This document shows positions 5,120-7,219 of a stretch of DNA of 7,219 bases, piece after piece. The DNA is from Lachnospiraceae bacterium (lineage in GTDB: Bacteria > Bacillota_A > Clostridia > Lachnospirales > Lachnospiraceae). Numbering within the stretch: position 1 is the first letter of the stretch; the number at the start of each line of letters is the position of its first letter. The position numbers and the translations under genes were made by a program. The stretch is taken from the NCBI GenBank assembly GCA_024699595.1, contig JAILPG010000186.1, forward strand, positions 1 to 7,219, given 5' to 3'. The notes below the pieces were generated by a model. The model had not been told where the DNA came from and made no database searches. It saw only the letters and a list, made by a program, of their open reading frames with translations.

Positions 5120-5683
5120 ATGGACAGAACATGTTATGTATTTTTGGCGGAAGGATTTGAGGAGATAGAAGCTCTTACTGTAGTCGATCTGTTAAGGAGA
5201 GCCGGGATCAAGTGCACCACCGTATCGATAAACGACGCCGATCAGATAACGGGATCCCACAGCATCACCGTCGCCTGTGATGCGCATATTTCCGATATTA
5301 ACATTGAAGGTGAGGACGTACTCATCCTTCCCGGCGGGATGCCCGGCACATCAAATCTTGCAGCCTGTGAGACGCTTTCGGATATGCTTATAAAGGCAAA
5401 TGAAAACAAGCAGATGATCTGTGCGATCTGCGCGGCTCCCACTGTTTTAGGCGGGCTAAAGCTGTTGGACGGGAAAAAGGCAACCTGTTATCCGGGATGT
5501 GAGGACCGTGTGGGCAAGGCCATCTGTGTAGAGGATGAAGTGGTAACCGACGGTAACATAACTACGTCCAGAGGAATGGGCACTGCAATACCTTTTGGGA
5601 TAGAACTGATAAGACTTCTCATAAATGATTATGAAGCTCTTGCCATGGAAAACAAAATCGTATATAAATCATCAAATTCATGA
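5120..5683 (+). CDS. DJ-1/PfpI (ThiJ) family protein
   Basis: Single-domain flavodoxin-like protein of 187 residues, the usual size for the DJ-1/YajL branch. Visible family marks are AEGFEEIEA (10-18), with Glu17 aligned to human DJ-1 Glu18; LPGGMPG (70-76); the nucleophile elbow AICAAP with Cys104, equivalent to DJ-1 Cys106; and TSRGMGTA near the C-terminus. Known relatives act on methylglyoxal/glyoxal or serve as oxidative-stress protectors, and a protein deglycase role is debated. The motif order fits DJ-1 better than PfpI proteases, because the catalytic His of PfpI type is not evident after Cys104 (here AAP). The substrate cannot be read from sequence. It is transcribed divergently from tig, and the long region after it contains no clear same-operon partner. 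Confidence 0.93.
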   Translation: MDRTCYVFLAEGFEEIEALTVVDLLRRAGIKCTTVSINDADQITGSHSITVACDAHISDINIEGEDVLILPGGMPGTSNLAACETLSDMLIKANENKQMICAICAAPTVLGGLKLLDGKKATCYPGCEDRVGKAICVEDEVVTDGNITTSRGMGTAIPFGIELIRLLINDYEALAMENKIVYKSSNS

Positions 5684-5685
5684 TA

Positions 5686-5802
5686 TTAATTCTGAGACCG
5701 CTGCGACTGACCGGGTCAAATGTGTGGACTGACCCGTCAGGTCATAATTGCAAAGTTACTGTAATCATGCGGGATATCAGGCAAATACCATTTCAGAATT
5801 AA
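5686..5802. repeat. Long-range inverted repeat downstream of the DJ-1 family gene
   Basis: TTAATTCTGA (5686-5695) and TCAGAATTAA (5793-5802) are perfectly complementary 10-bp arms 97 bp apart. They enclose the stem-loop at 5707-5740. A second pair, GTTACT-GTA-ATCAT (5755-5768) and ATGATAGTAAC (5803-5813), straddles the right arm and would be an alternative or pseudoknotted pairing. Confidence 0.45.
5707..5740 (+). terminator. Possible terminator hairpin of the DJ-1 family gene
   Basis: CTGACCGGGTCA (5707-5718) pairs with TGACCCGTCAG (5730-5740) over 11 bp with one bulged C and an 11-nt loop, 23 nt after the stop codon. The tail is GTCATAATTG rather than a run of T. It is therefore a weak intrinsic terminator candidate, or an RNA-stabilising stem. 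Confidence 0.4.
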
Positions 5803-5804
5803 AT

Positions 5805-5952
5805 GATAGTAACGTTGTATATCAATGTTCCGTATTTATGTTATATAACATTGTTGTTATAACAAAATAATCATTACAGCGTTACATATCCATGTTATAT
5901 AATGTTGTTATGTATGGAAAAGATTAGATATCGATGTTATATATCATTGATA
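5805..5952 (-). repeat. Left array of degenerate 13-bp AT-rich repeats (minus orientation)
   Basis: Read on the minus strand, this stretch breaks into units close to TAACATYRATATR. Examples are TAACATCGATATC (5927-5939), TAACAACATTATA (5898-5910), TAACATGGATATG (5885-5897) and TAACATAAATACG (5831-5843). The phase is less regular than in the right array: a 3-nt and a 2-nt slip and several poor units are present. The consensus is the same as at 6008-6124 but on the opposite strand. No gene is supported here. Confidence 0.6.
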
Positions 5953-5974
5953 TTTTATTCTGTAAGTTTACATA

Positions 5975-6005
5975 ATTGCAGGATTCTAAGCCTCTTTCCT
6001 GCAAT
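5975..6005. repeat. Hairpin at the switch point between the two 13-bp repeat arrays
   Basis: ATTGCAGGA (5975-5983) and TCCTGCAAT (5997-6005) form a perfect 9-bp stem with a 13-nt loop. Neither side carries a T tract, so it does not look like a terminator. The repeat units point away from it on both sides. A further imperfect inverted pair flanks it: 5875-5898 against 6007-6030, 20 of 24 positions complementary. Confidence 0.6.
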
Positions 6006-6007
6006 AA

Positions 6008-6124
6008 TAACATCATTATGTAACGCTGTTGTATAACGTCTATATGTAACATCATTATATATCATTGTTGCATATCATCATTATGTAACATCGCTATATA
6101 ACGTTGATGCATAACATCAATATC
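6008..6124 (+). repeat. Right array: nine in-phase degenerate 13-bp tandem repeats
   Basis: Nine consecutive 13-bp units without any phase slip. The first is TAACATCATTATG, the second TAACGCTGTTGTA, the fourth TAACATCATTATA and the ninth TAACATCAATATC. By my count T1, A2, C4 and T10 are invariant, and the consensus is TAACRTYRWTRYR. Most substitutions at positions 5, 6, 7, 11 and 12 are transitions. Units 2, 5 and 8 resemble each other, so there is a higher-order period of 39 bp: 30/39 and 31/39 identities between adjacent 39-mers. The array ends about 150 bp before the CYTH gene and carries in-phase stop codons, so it is not coding. Confidence 0.8.
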
Positions 6125-6147
6125 TATAGGTTGTACAGAGCCGAAAA

Positions 6148-6252: not shown

Positions 6253-6259
6253 AGGAGGT
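6253..6259 (+). promoter_or_regulatory. Shine-Dalgarno that decides the CYTH gene start
   Basis: AGGAGGT about 12 nt before the ATG at 6272. It shows that the open frame running upstream to 6104, through repeats and leader, is not translated as part of this protein. Confidence 0.75.
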
Positions 6260-6271
6260 GTAAATATTCAT

Positions 6272-6733
6272 ATGGGAGTAGAGATCGAAAGGAAATTTCT
6301 GATAAGCAAACTGCCGGATAACATAGATGACTATGAATATCATCTGATAGAACAGGCTTACCTTACCACAGATCCTGTTATCCGCATTAGAAAGGAAGAT
6401 GATAATTATTATCTGACTTACAAAGGCAAGGGCCTGCTTGCCAGGGAAGAATACAACCTGCCGATTACAAAAGAGGCGTATGACACTCTGATACATAAGG
6501 CGGATGGAAATATCATCTCAAAAAAAAGAGTGCTCATCCCCTACGATAAGCACCTTATAGAACTCGATATGTTTGATGAACCGTTTGCTCCCCTTATCCT
6601 TGCAGAGGTGGAGTTTTCCTCGATCGAGGATGCGGATTCCTTTGTCGTCCCCGAATGGTTTTCAGAGGATGTCACCAATGATACGGCTTATCACAACTCC
6701 ACAATGAGCAGGCAGGTATTTAAGGCTGACTGA
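6272..6733 (+). CDS. CYTH domain protein (triphosphate tunnel metalloenzyme)
   Basis: Single CYTH domain of 153 residues, the usual length for compact bacterial members such as the Clostridium thermocellum tripolyphosphatase. The diagnostic ExExK is E4-I-E6-R-K8 at the very N-terminus. Other expected tunnel residues are R38 and R40 (IRIRK), K51 and K53 (YKGKG), R58 and E60 (REEYN), K84/K85/R86, E97 and D99 (IELD), and E112 and E114 (AEVEF). The family hydrolyses triphosphates with Mg or Mn. Related enzymes are tripolyphosphatases, thiamine triphosphatases or class IV adenylate cyclases, and the sequence does not decide which. The start at 6272 was taken because AGGAGG lies just upstream and the ExExK must be N-terminal. 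The upstream extension of the frame is low-complexity sequence. No convincing promoter was found. The gene converges on the next one with 8 bp between stops. Confidence 0.92.
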   Translation: MGVEIERKFLISKLPDNIDDYEYHLIEQAYLTTDPVIRIRKEDDNYYLTYKGKGLLAREEYNLPITKEAYDTLIHKADGNIISKKRVLIPYDKHLIELDMFDEPFAPLILAEVEFSSIEDADSFVVPEWFSEDVTNDTAYHNSTMSRQVFKAD

Positions 6734-6741
6734 CCGTATTA

Positions 6742-7219
6742 CTAACCATTTATCTTTATATTTGTAAGAACACACTGGTCGCCGGTGAGCGCCGCATAAA
6801 GGGTGCCTCTGTCATCCTTTATCTTCGTCTGGTTTCTTATGTATATTCCGTTGTTTTCGGTCATGGTTATCACTGTATTGCCGGTACGCTCAAAGCTTAC
6901 TTCGCAGTCAAAGCCTTCTTTGTTCTGTTTTTTCCATGAATCCCAGCTTTCAAAGGCCTCCGTTTTATTTACGATGATGCGGTTGTCTGCTGCCTGATCC
7001 ATCCCGGATGACTCGCCGTCAAGTCTAATCAGCGCATATTCCGTATAATCCGGTCCTCCGACCTTTTTATCCTGCGAAGAAAAGAGTACTATATGCGGAC
7101 AATGCCAGATAAGCCTTGATGTCGGAAGGCTCTTTGTATGAAATGACAGCTTTAATCTTTCATTTACGGGAACACCGATGGTGGTATCGCTTCTCTGACC
7201 GTTTATCTGGATATTTGGT
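6742..7219 (-). CDS. C-terminal part of an uncharacterised protein (N-terminus beyond window)
   Basis: The minus-strand frame is open from the window edge to the TAG at 6742-6744, giving 159 visible residues. A Met codon at 7002 lies in mid-domain and should not be taken as the start. The sequence is rich in alternating hydrophobic/polar strands: RLKLSFH, RLIWHCPHIVLFSS, EYALIRLDGES, NTVITMTENNGIYIRN, TLYAALTGDQCVLTNIKI. It has few helices, suggesting a beta-sandwich domain of the carbohydrate-binding or lectin-like kind. The motif W-D-S-W-K-x-x-N-K-x-G-F-D and the C-terminal ALTGDQ-LTNI look like conserved domain features. No transmembrane segment or catalytic motif is visible in this part. 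I do not recognise the full protein, and the function must be read from the missing N-terminal portion. Confidence 0.75.
   Translation of the reverse strand, partial: PNIQINGQRSDTTIGVPVNERLKLSFHTKSLPTSRLIWHCPHIVLFSSQDKKVGGPDYTEYALIRLDGESSGMDQAADNRIIVNKTEAFESWDSWKKQNKEGFDCEVSFERTGNTVITMTENNGIYIRNQTKIKDDRGTLYAALTGDQCVLTNIKING

Follow-up and report, generated by a model that had tools for sequence, protein, structure and literature searches.

A 13-bp repeat array in a DJ-1/CYTH gene junction

The stretch of DNA analysed here (hereafter the window) comprises 7219 nt of contig JAILPG010000186.1 from a Lachnospiraceae bacterium. Its forward strand carries a DJ-1/PfpI family gene at 5120–5683 and a CYTH-domain gene at 6272–6733, both recognized by domain match, the second preceded by AGGAGG at about 6253–6258. 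Much of the junction between the two is occupied by an array of 13-bp repeats, and a ytvI-ysxC-clpX-clpP-tig cluster adjoins. On the reverse strand, a 158-aa ORF (6742–7218), open at the window end, has no Pfam or NCBIfam match at E 0.001. The next best matches to the window CYTH protein are at most 79% identical, and 12 of the 14 records found with it are labelled Lachnospiraceae or Blautia. Genome G430 is the sister of the window both in a YsxC tree (89% identity, eight chosen relatives) and in a YtvI tree (82% identity, seven chosen relatives). The genus containing G430, sampled here as 37 species genomes, is termed below the nearest genus.

The main block of the array (6007–6123, forward strand) consists of nine abutting 13-bp units. 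The original prediction had described nine units at 6008–6124, following one another without a gap and invariant at positions 1, 2, 4 and 10; we confirm the gapless run and, in that register, the invariance of these positions in all nine units. Lag-13 identity is 0.61, compared with 0.30 ± 0.05 in 5000 dinucleotide shuffles, and lag-39 identity is 0.78, compared with 0.30 ± 0.06. Neither value was equalled in the 5000 shuffles, whichever period between 5 and 39 was taken. This was the control that the original prediction had proposed; shuffled sequence never gave comparable 13-bp periodicity. Tandem Repeats Finder reports the region as 39 bp × 3.0 and as 13 bp × 7.4. The natural register of the unit begins one base earlier, at 6007, where each unit becomes a 13-bp near-palindrome with ideal form ATAACA-N-TGTTAT and general form RTAWC-NNN-GWTAY; because of this symmetry the units can be read on both strands. 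In the profile the half-sites are conserved and the centre is variable, the pattern of palindromic half-sites at fixed spacing that is looked for in a TetR operator.

The array extends well upstream of the main block. A matrix built only from TetR-gene promoters of other genomes (the promoter-anchored matrix, described below) scores the nine main-block units at 6.9–12.6 bits each, and with it the whole array covers 5806–6123 (318 bp), with 17 units of at least 6 bits spanning 5819 to 6123 and one weaker unit of 4.2 bits at 5806. The additional units are in phase inside each of three upstream blocks. The first (5806–5857) has four units, with starts at 5806 (the weak one), 5819, 5832 and 5845, mostly in the opposite half-site orientation; the second (5873–5911) has three, with starts at 5873, 5886 and 5899, and the top three-unit score of the array (31.7 bits); the third (5928–5953), found in the matrix scan, has two, ATATCGATGTTAT and ATATCATTGATAT. 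Among the 17 units 13 of the 16 spacings are exactly 13, the remaining three being 28, 29 and 66. Window-wide, five lone sites of at least 6 bits lie outside the array (162, 707, 5262, 5286 and 6318), and are taken as chance. The spacer before the main block holds a short inverted repeat (5972–6008) with 12-nt arms and a 13-nt loop, which we do not call a terminator.

Promoter-like matches in the junction are not above chance (2, against a shuffle mean of 4.6). One of these, TTGATA-18-CATAAT at 5947–5976 on the forward strand, agrees at 10 of 12 letters and overlaps the unit at 5941; it could be a masked CYTH promoter.

Arrays across the nearest genus

Within the nearest genus, CYTH matches best in G419 and G440; both carry 13-bp arrays at this DJ-1/CYTH junction as well, and in G428 a clean array of five units occupies a different place. 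From these we built a DNA-only three-unit model, R1, using 15 stretches (five from the window and ten from G419, G440 and G428) and their reverse complements. R1 matched 36 of the 37 genus genomes at E ≤ 0.1, and 34 of them at 1.1e-4 or better; the matches in G429 (E 0.09) and G430 (E 0.03) are weak, and G414 had no match at E ≤ 0.1. In the 654 094 bases of the 40 array loci examined, 58 array blocks were counted in forward sequence and 3 in reversed (not complemented) sequence, a difference biased by the choice of these regions with R1.

Of these 40 loci, 19 have the array directly upstream of one and the same TetR-family gene of about 185 aa (at L107 judged by coordinates). The remaining arrays precede genes for a zinc-ribbon membrane protein, a MaoC-Sir2 pair, a YfhO protein, a CobW protein or the CYTH protein. 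Some junctions carry arrays recurrently in several species, namely DJ-1/CYTH, c38-c11 and c55-c56. Several conserved junctions have long arrays of the same operator in the gap that separates a gene from the start of its neighbour: c11 (L096, L099, L102, L106, L110, L115 and L118), MaoC-Sir2 (L089, L095, L097), YfhO (L101, L116) and CobW (L088, L109). Together these make a candidate regulon.

Junctions with and without arrays can be compared directly. G429 has no array at DJ-1/CYTH, and 28 bp there separate the stop of the first gene from the start of the second. The array-free gap before c11 is 58 bp in G432, where c38 precedes it, and 66 bp in G425, where a different gene does; at the seven c11 loci with an array the gap is 141–537 bp. 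With such short gaps where arrays are missing, the arrays therefore occupy apparent operon junctions. The similar array of G431 has the end of DJ-1 on one side and a convergent gene on the other. The G419 DJ-1/CYTH junction also contains, after its 13-bp arrays, a different tandem repeat of 105 bp × 2.9 with 86% matches (L048:1091–1388).

Spacing and growth by whole units

The 13-bp phase is kept throughout the genus. Among the 352 neighbour spacings of at most 60 bp in 41 loci, which the array model had selected, 313 equal 13 exactly and, of the remaining 39, 20 equal 26, 39 or 52; the earlier suggestion that spacing is preserved while sequence drifts thus extends from the window to its relatives. 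The longest unbroken run is 17 units (L116), and the L125 junction has 26 units in several blocks.

The 39-bp super-period that had been noted in the window is real there, as its lag-39 identity shows, but it does not characterize the arrays in general; lag 3 is the best of lags 1–5 in only 7 of the 32 blocks of at least seven units at the loci examined. We read the window super-period as a local duplication. Comparable events are visible elsewhere: L101 has an exact 45-nt run at lag 39, which by its sequence is a recent three-unit duplication, and L088 has an exact 28-nt run at lag 13. From such sequence comparisons, the arrays appear to grow and shrink by whole units.

Exact copies of this kind raise the possibility that the array is a passive satellite whose units multiplied in operon junctions through slippage or unequal crossing-over and persist with little function. 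The duplications in L101 and L088 favour this, as do the array-free DJ-1/CYTH junction of G429 and c38-c11 gap of G432. However, the divergence of most units is too great for recent copies, while their half-sites and 13-bp phase (the 313 of 352 spacings) are kept, and conservation tracks the operator rather than the entire unit. We regard passive expansion as improbable.

Units at the promoter of a TetR-family gene

The TetR-family gene found beside so many arrays allowed a test anchored on promoters rather than on the repeats. We read the upstream regions of 32 of its 35 orthologues in the genus. In 31 of the 32 a TTGACA-N17/18-TATAAT-like promoter could be placed without use of the motif (that of G440 was unplaced). 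A first unit, ATAAC-NNN-GTTA[TC], begins on the last two bases of the −10 box in 28 of these 31 promoters, those of G414, G419 and G442 being out of register. Further units follow downstream every 13 bp, with at least three consecutive in 26 of the 31 and up to eight. These arrays start, and often end, with a symmetric unit and have asymmetric units (TAAC..GATA) all pointing one way in between, a =>>>>>= pattern seen for example at L104:9963–10053 and L108:10012–10102.

The promoter-anchored matrix was made from 93 position-anchored units of these TetR promoters, with zero window data. At nine placements a full three-unit stretch of the window array receives 28.6–31.7 bits from it; values within the array are lower where the stretch leaves a block, and nowhere else in the window does a site exceed −0.3. 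An earlier matrix of 113 promoter units reached 34.2 bits on the window, while 1000 shuffled versions of the intergenic region gave at most 8.1, and it scored positive in the array phase only; it is less independent, its units having been chosen by means of a matrix that had the window and its relatives as seed.

Closest to the window the promoter arrays are short. The TetR promoters of G414, G419, G429, G430 and G431 have one or two units only (in G430 one full and one partial unit), and that of G440 has at most degenerate units; G419, G431, G440 and the window have their long array at DJ-1 and not at the TetR promoter. Because the near-window TetR promoters have so few units, long arrays and autorepression are separable.

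The TetR-family regulator

Orthologues of the regulator (at least 45% identity) are present in 35 of the 37 genus genomes, two of them as fragments. In the other two, the draft genomes G415 and G425, arrays are present, yet only paralogues of about 33% identity were found. The protein has a conserved length of 182–191 aa, and its segment STQPIFR is invariant across 115 homologues. Pfam TetR_N and TetR_C_33 match it just below their cut-offs. Its structure model (pLDDT 87.8) predicts a TetR fold, and a structure search with this model returned 39 matches at E ≤ 0.001 to solved TetR-family structures, the best at 9.3e-5. The 50 structure matches listed are TetR itself or regulators, most named as TetR-family; some of these regulators we take to be members of that family. 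A sequence profile search of the PDB matched TetR chains distantly (best E 1.3e-4). By model, PDB and profile matches, then, the regulator is predicted to have the TetR fold expected of a cognate regulator.

The gene has the same clpX-clpP-tig neighbourhood in G419, G431, G429, G430, G414, G442 and G142, and in G440 it is on a separate contig. The window contig is without it; in G430, the nearest relative of eight compared, it is in syntenic position, and alignment to G430 would put the copy of the window genome about 6 kb beyond the left end of the window.

Sites outside the genus

Two tests outside the genus ran in opposite directions, one from DNA to protein and the other from protein to DNA. 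R1 was applied to 397 genomes of the family and matched 49 at E ≤ 0.001, two of them in the genus. For the first test we took the 28 best extra-genus R1 loci, one per genome (L158–L185). The R1 locus is directly upstream of a TetR-family gene in 26 of the 28, where chance would give about 0.02 of 28 loci (based on 341 TetR_N matches in these 28 genomes, about 90 Mb). Of the 26 genes, 3 belong to the regulator's own subfamily, 19 were confirmed by Pfam (19 of the 20 proteins scanned), and 4 were assigned by the coordinates of PF00440 matches (L159, L170, L172 and L178). The regulator's own subfamily is absent nearby in 25 of the 28 loci, and 23 of these 25 are upstream of other TetR-family genes. 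The two loci that are not upstream of a TetR gene are L160 (G254) and L176 (G033). L176 has two units and precedes an ABC transporter gene, and a TetR_N match lies on its opposite side at a distance of about 0.5 kb; the transporter gene is possibly a TetR target. Among 19 further R1-matching extra-genus genomes, G263, G192 and G107 have a TetR homologue adjoining the match, by coordinates.

For the second test, the 28 best extra-genus TetR homologues were chosen by protein similarity alone (L188–L215). RTAAC-N3/4-GTTAY (at least 9 of 10 letters) occurs within 220 bp upstream of 24 of the 28, where shuffles lead one to expect 1.9. The centre is three bases long in 5 of these 24 sites and four bases long in 19. 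The four-base form with the same half-sites, ATAAC-N4-GTTAT, is found upstream of TetR genes of the MARKE/MPRKE type and of some of the MPPK type (L189–L214), and spacer length seems to follow protein subgroup.

Extra-genus R1 loci mostly consist of two abutting 13-bp units, for example ATAACAGTGTTATATAACACTGTTAT, and the TetR genes beside such two-unit sites mostly encode proteins of about 205–215 aa. The two-unit form is probably a widespread operator form in Lachnospiraceae, and our conclusion from these comparisons is that the nearest genus stretched it into chains.

Nature of the units

Since the window array matches a matrix drawn from TetR promoters, and since R1 loci outside the genus lie upstream of TetR genes, we interpret the units as TetR-type operators, a reading that we hold to be highly probable. 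The original prediction had offered an array of protein-binding sites or an RNA fold as the object of selection on spacing, and the match of the units to TetR-family operators strongly supports the first of these.

The second, in which the units would form hairpins between one another on the transcribed strand, is very unlikely. The forward strand at 5795–6135 does fold better than shuffles (z −7.9), a result that is unavoidable because the units are palindromic. In six classes of non-promoter loci the units mostly face one way with respect to the gene that follows, as an RNA element would; the DJ-1/CYTH class, however, is mixed or opposite, and since this class does not run forward we do not count the orientation bias in favour of RNA. 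Selection for RNA pairing should favour G.U over A.C, and at the paired positions of the palindrome A.C is as common as G.U (201 versus 172 in sense orientation in 294 non-promoter units), so that such selection is unsupported; promoter units show the same (63 versus 54 in 113 units). Neither the RNA fold nor the wobble pairing that had been read into the transitions between units is thus borne out. Also, the first unit at the regulator promoter overlaps the −10 box and is hence at least partly untranscribed, and the array has no Rfam match at gathering thresholds. An RNA element was accordingly rejected, as a sequence that folds well but without wobble preference.

A still slimmer chance attaches to a chromosome-organizing or segregation site, matS-like or a centromere of the ParR/omega type, bound by a protein other than TetR. 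The palindromic 13-bp unit, with its RNY centre, resembles matS (GTGACRNYGTCAC), the site of MatP, the consensus differing on inspection at positions 3 and 11, and tandem arrays resemble plasmid centromeres; against this, two independent tests place the units at TetR promoters, the sites are at gene junctions and are few per genome among the matches listed, and there is no plasmid match. An iteron or centromere of a plasmid or phage was rejected, with no plasmid match and weak matches to four Staphylococcus phage records (best E 0.03).

What the arrays may do

If the units are operators, one 13-bp unit RTAWC-NNN-GWTAY would be the site of one dimer, and the roughly 17 tandem operators of the window would be bound by the window genome's copy of the conserved TetR-family regulator. 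Dimers would then sit every 13 bp (about 1.24 helical turns), because the units abut without gaps. At the regulator's own promoter, a first unit on the −10 box with more units downstream would be a standard autorepression layout.

At DJ-1/CYTH, repressor-coated DNA may uncouple CYTH from DJ-1 by acting as a roadblock or silencer; alternatively, the repressor may mask a weak CYTH promoter inside the array. Binding of the regulator to the units, and any effect on CYTH, we infer from sequence. A roadblock or silencer is suggested by the combination of a junction without a promoter above chance and the 28-bp junction of the relative G429, although the same lack of a promoter makes the regulatory effect of the junction array a guess. 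Granted that the units are operators, we rate the chances of a roadblock or silencer as about even, and in our judgement it ranks first among the functions considered, with a repressor sink second and passive expansion third.

A sink rivals this reading in function only, the units remaining operators. By titrating free repressor, long arrays away from the TetR promoter would determine the threshold of the autoregulated circuit, with neighbouring genes unaffected. Such arrays do lie at unrelated places with no promoter obvious by eye, including the convergent junction of G431, and they share their unit consensus with the promoter arrays, as far as units picked with the matrix can tell. Titration of a factor by decoy sites is moreover an established principle (PMC7826281, in part). 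Several species, however, have arrays at the same junctions, for which a pure sink has no need, and several genomes show the promoter array only, among the matches listed. We consider a sink rather unlikely as the main function, if less so than passive expansion.

The roadblock or silencer reading can be taken further. A more tentative proposal, less likely than not in our estimation, is that in one Lachnospiraceae lineage long operon-junction chains carry a continuous lattice of TetR dimers that would serve as a promoter-independent roadblock or as a chromatin-like silencer, with array length an evolvable dial. The geometry of such a lattice would be regular, as at a 13-bp pitch four dimers come close to five turns of DNA.

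Comparison with known systems

The unit variant ATATCATTGATAT contains TATCATTGATA, which we take to be the tetO core. The system also resembles TetR-tetO and other TetR-family operators made of a single palindrome in having a palindromic site at the regulator's own promoter and a regulator with a predicted TetR fold and HTH. TetR binds one 15-bp palindrome per dimer (PMC4482099, in part); here, in contrast, 13-bp palindromes abut in large numbers, with unbroken runs of up to 17, and the regulator is only distantly related. QacR binds 28 bp as a tetramer (same source, in part), that is, as two adjacent dimers, and the two-unit form outside the genus (about 26 bp) is of similar scale. However, QacR uses one 28-bp palindrome, whereas the sites here are two abutting separate palindromes, and many units in the genus.

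EthR reportedly sits on its operator as an octamer. Multiple copies of EthR bind the operator, whose motifs are larger, complex and non-classical (PMC4482099, in part). The likeness would be that several dimers bind one operator cooperatively; the difference is that EthR involves about four dimers and a non-classical motif, whereas here there is a regular 13-bp lattice, with up to 17 unbroken units and 26 at L125. Engineered tetO and lacO arrays, used for chromosome tagging in live cells, are also long chromosomal chains of operators of the TetR type; unlike these, the present arrays are natural and degenerate, have a 13-bp pitch and lie at conserved gene junctions.

To our knowledge, known TetR-family operators accommodate one, two or about four dimers. 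Within the open-licence PMC literature, covered mostly at the level of abstracts, such operator arrays are not described, and long natural chains of TetR-family operators, some in operon junctions, look new. If the interpretation is right, unbroken natural chains of as many as 17 operators, kept at operon junctions, would be a new mode of repression and a natural counterpart of the synthetic chromosome-tagging arrays. Array length as the tuner of a roadblock, sink or silencer becomes directly testable.

Few bacterial regulators are as common as repressors of the TetR family, and the doublet upstream of extra-genus TetR genes would supply an operator motif for many uncharacterized regulators of gut bacteria. 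Arrays longer than the doublet are also seen in G254, of another genus, with three units at L227:9467–9505 and four plus three units at L228:9341–9444. Neither of these is at a TetR gene, and the L228 array lies just before a corrinoid adenosyltransferase gene.
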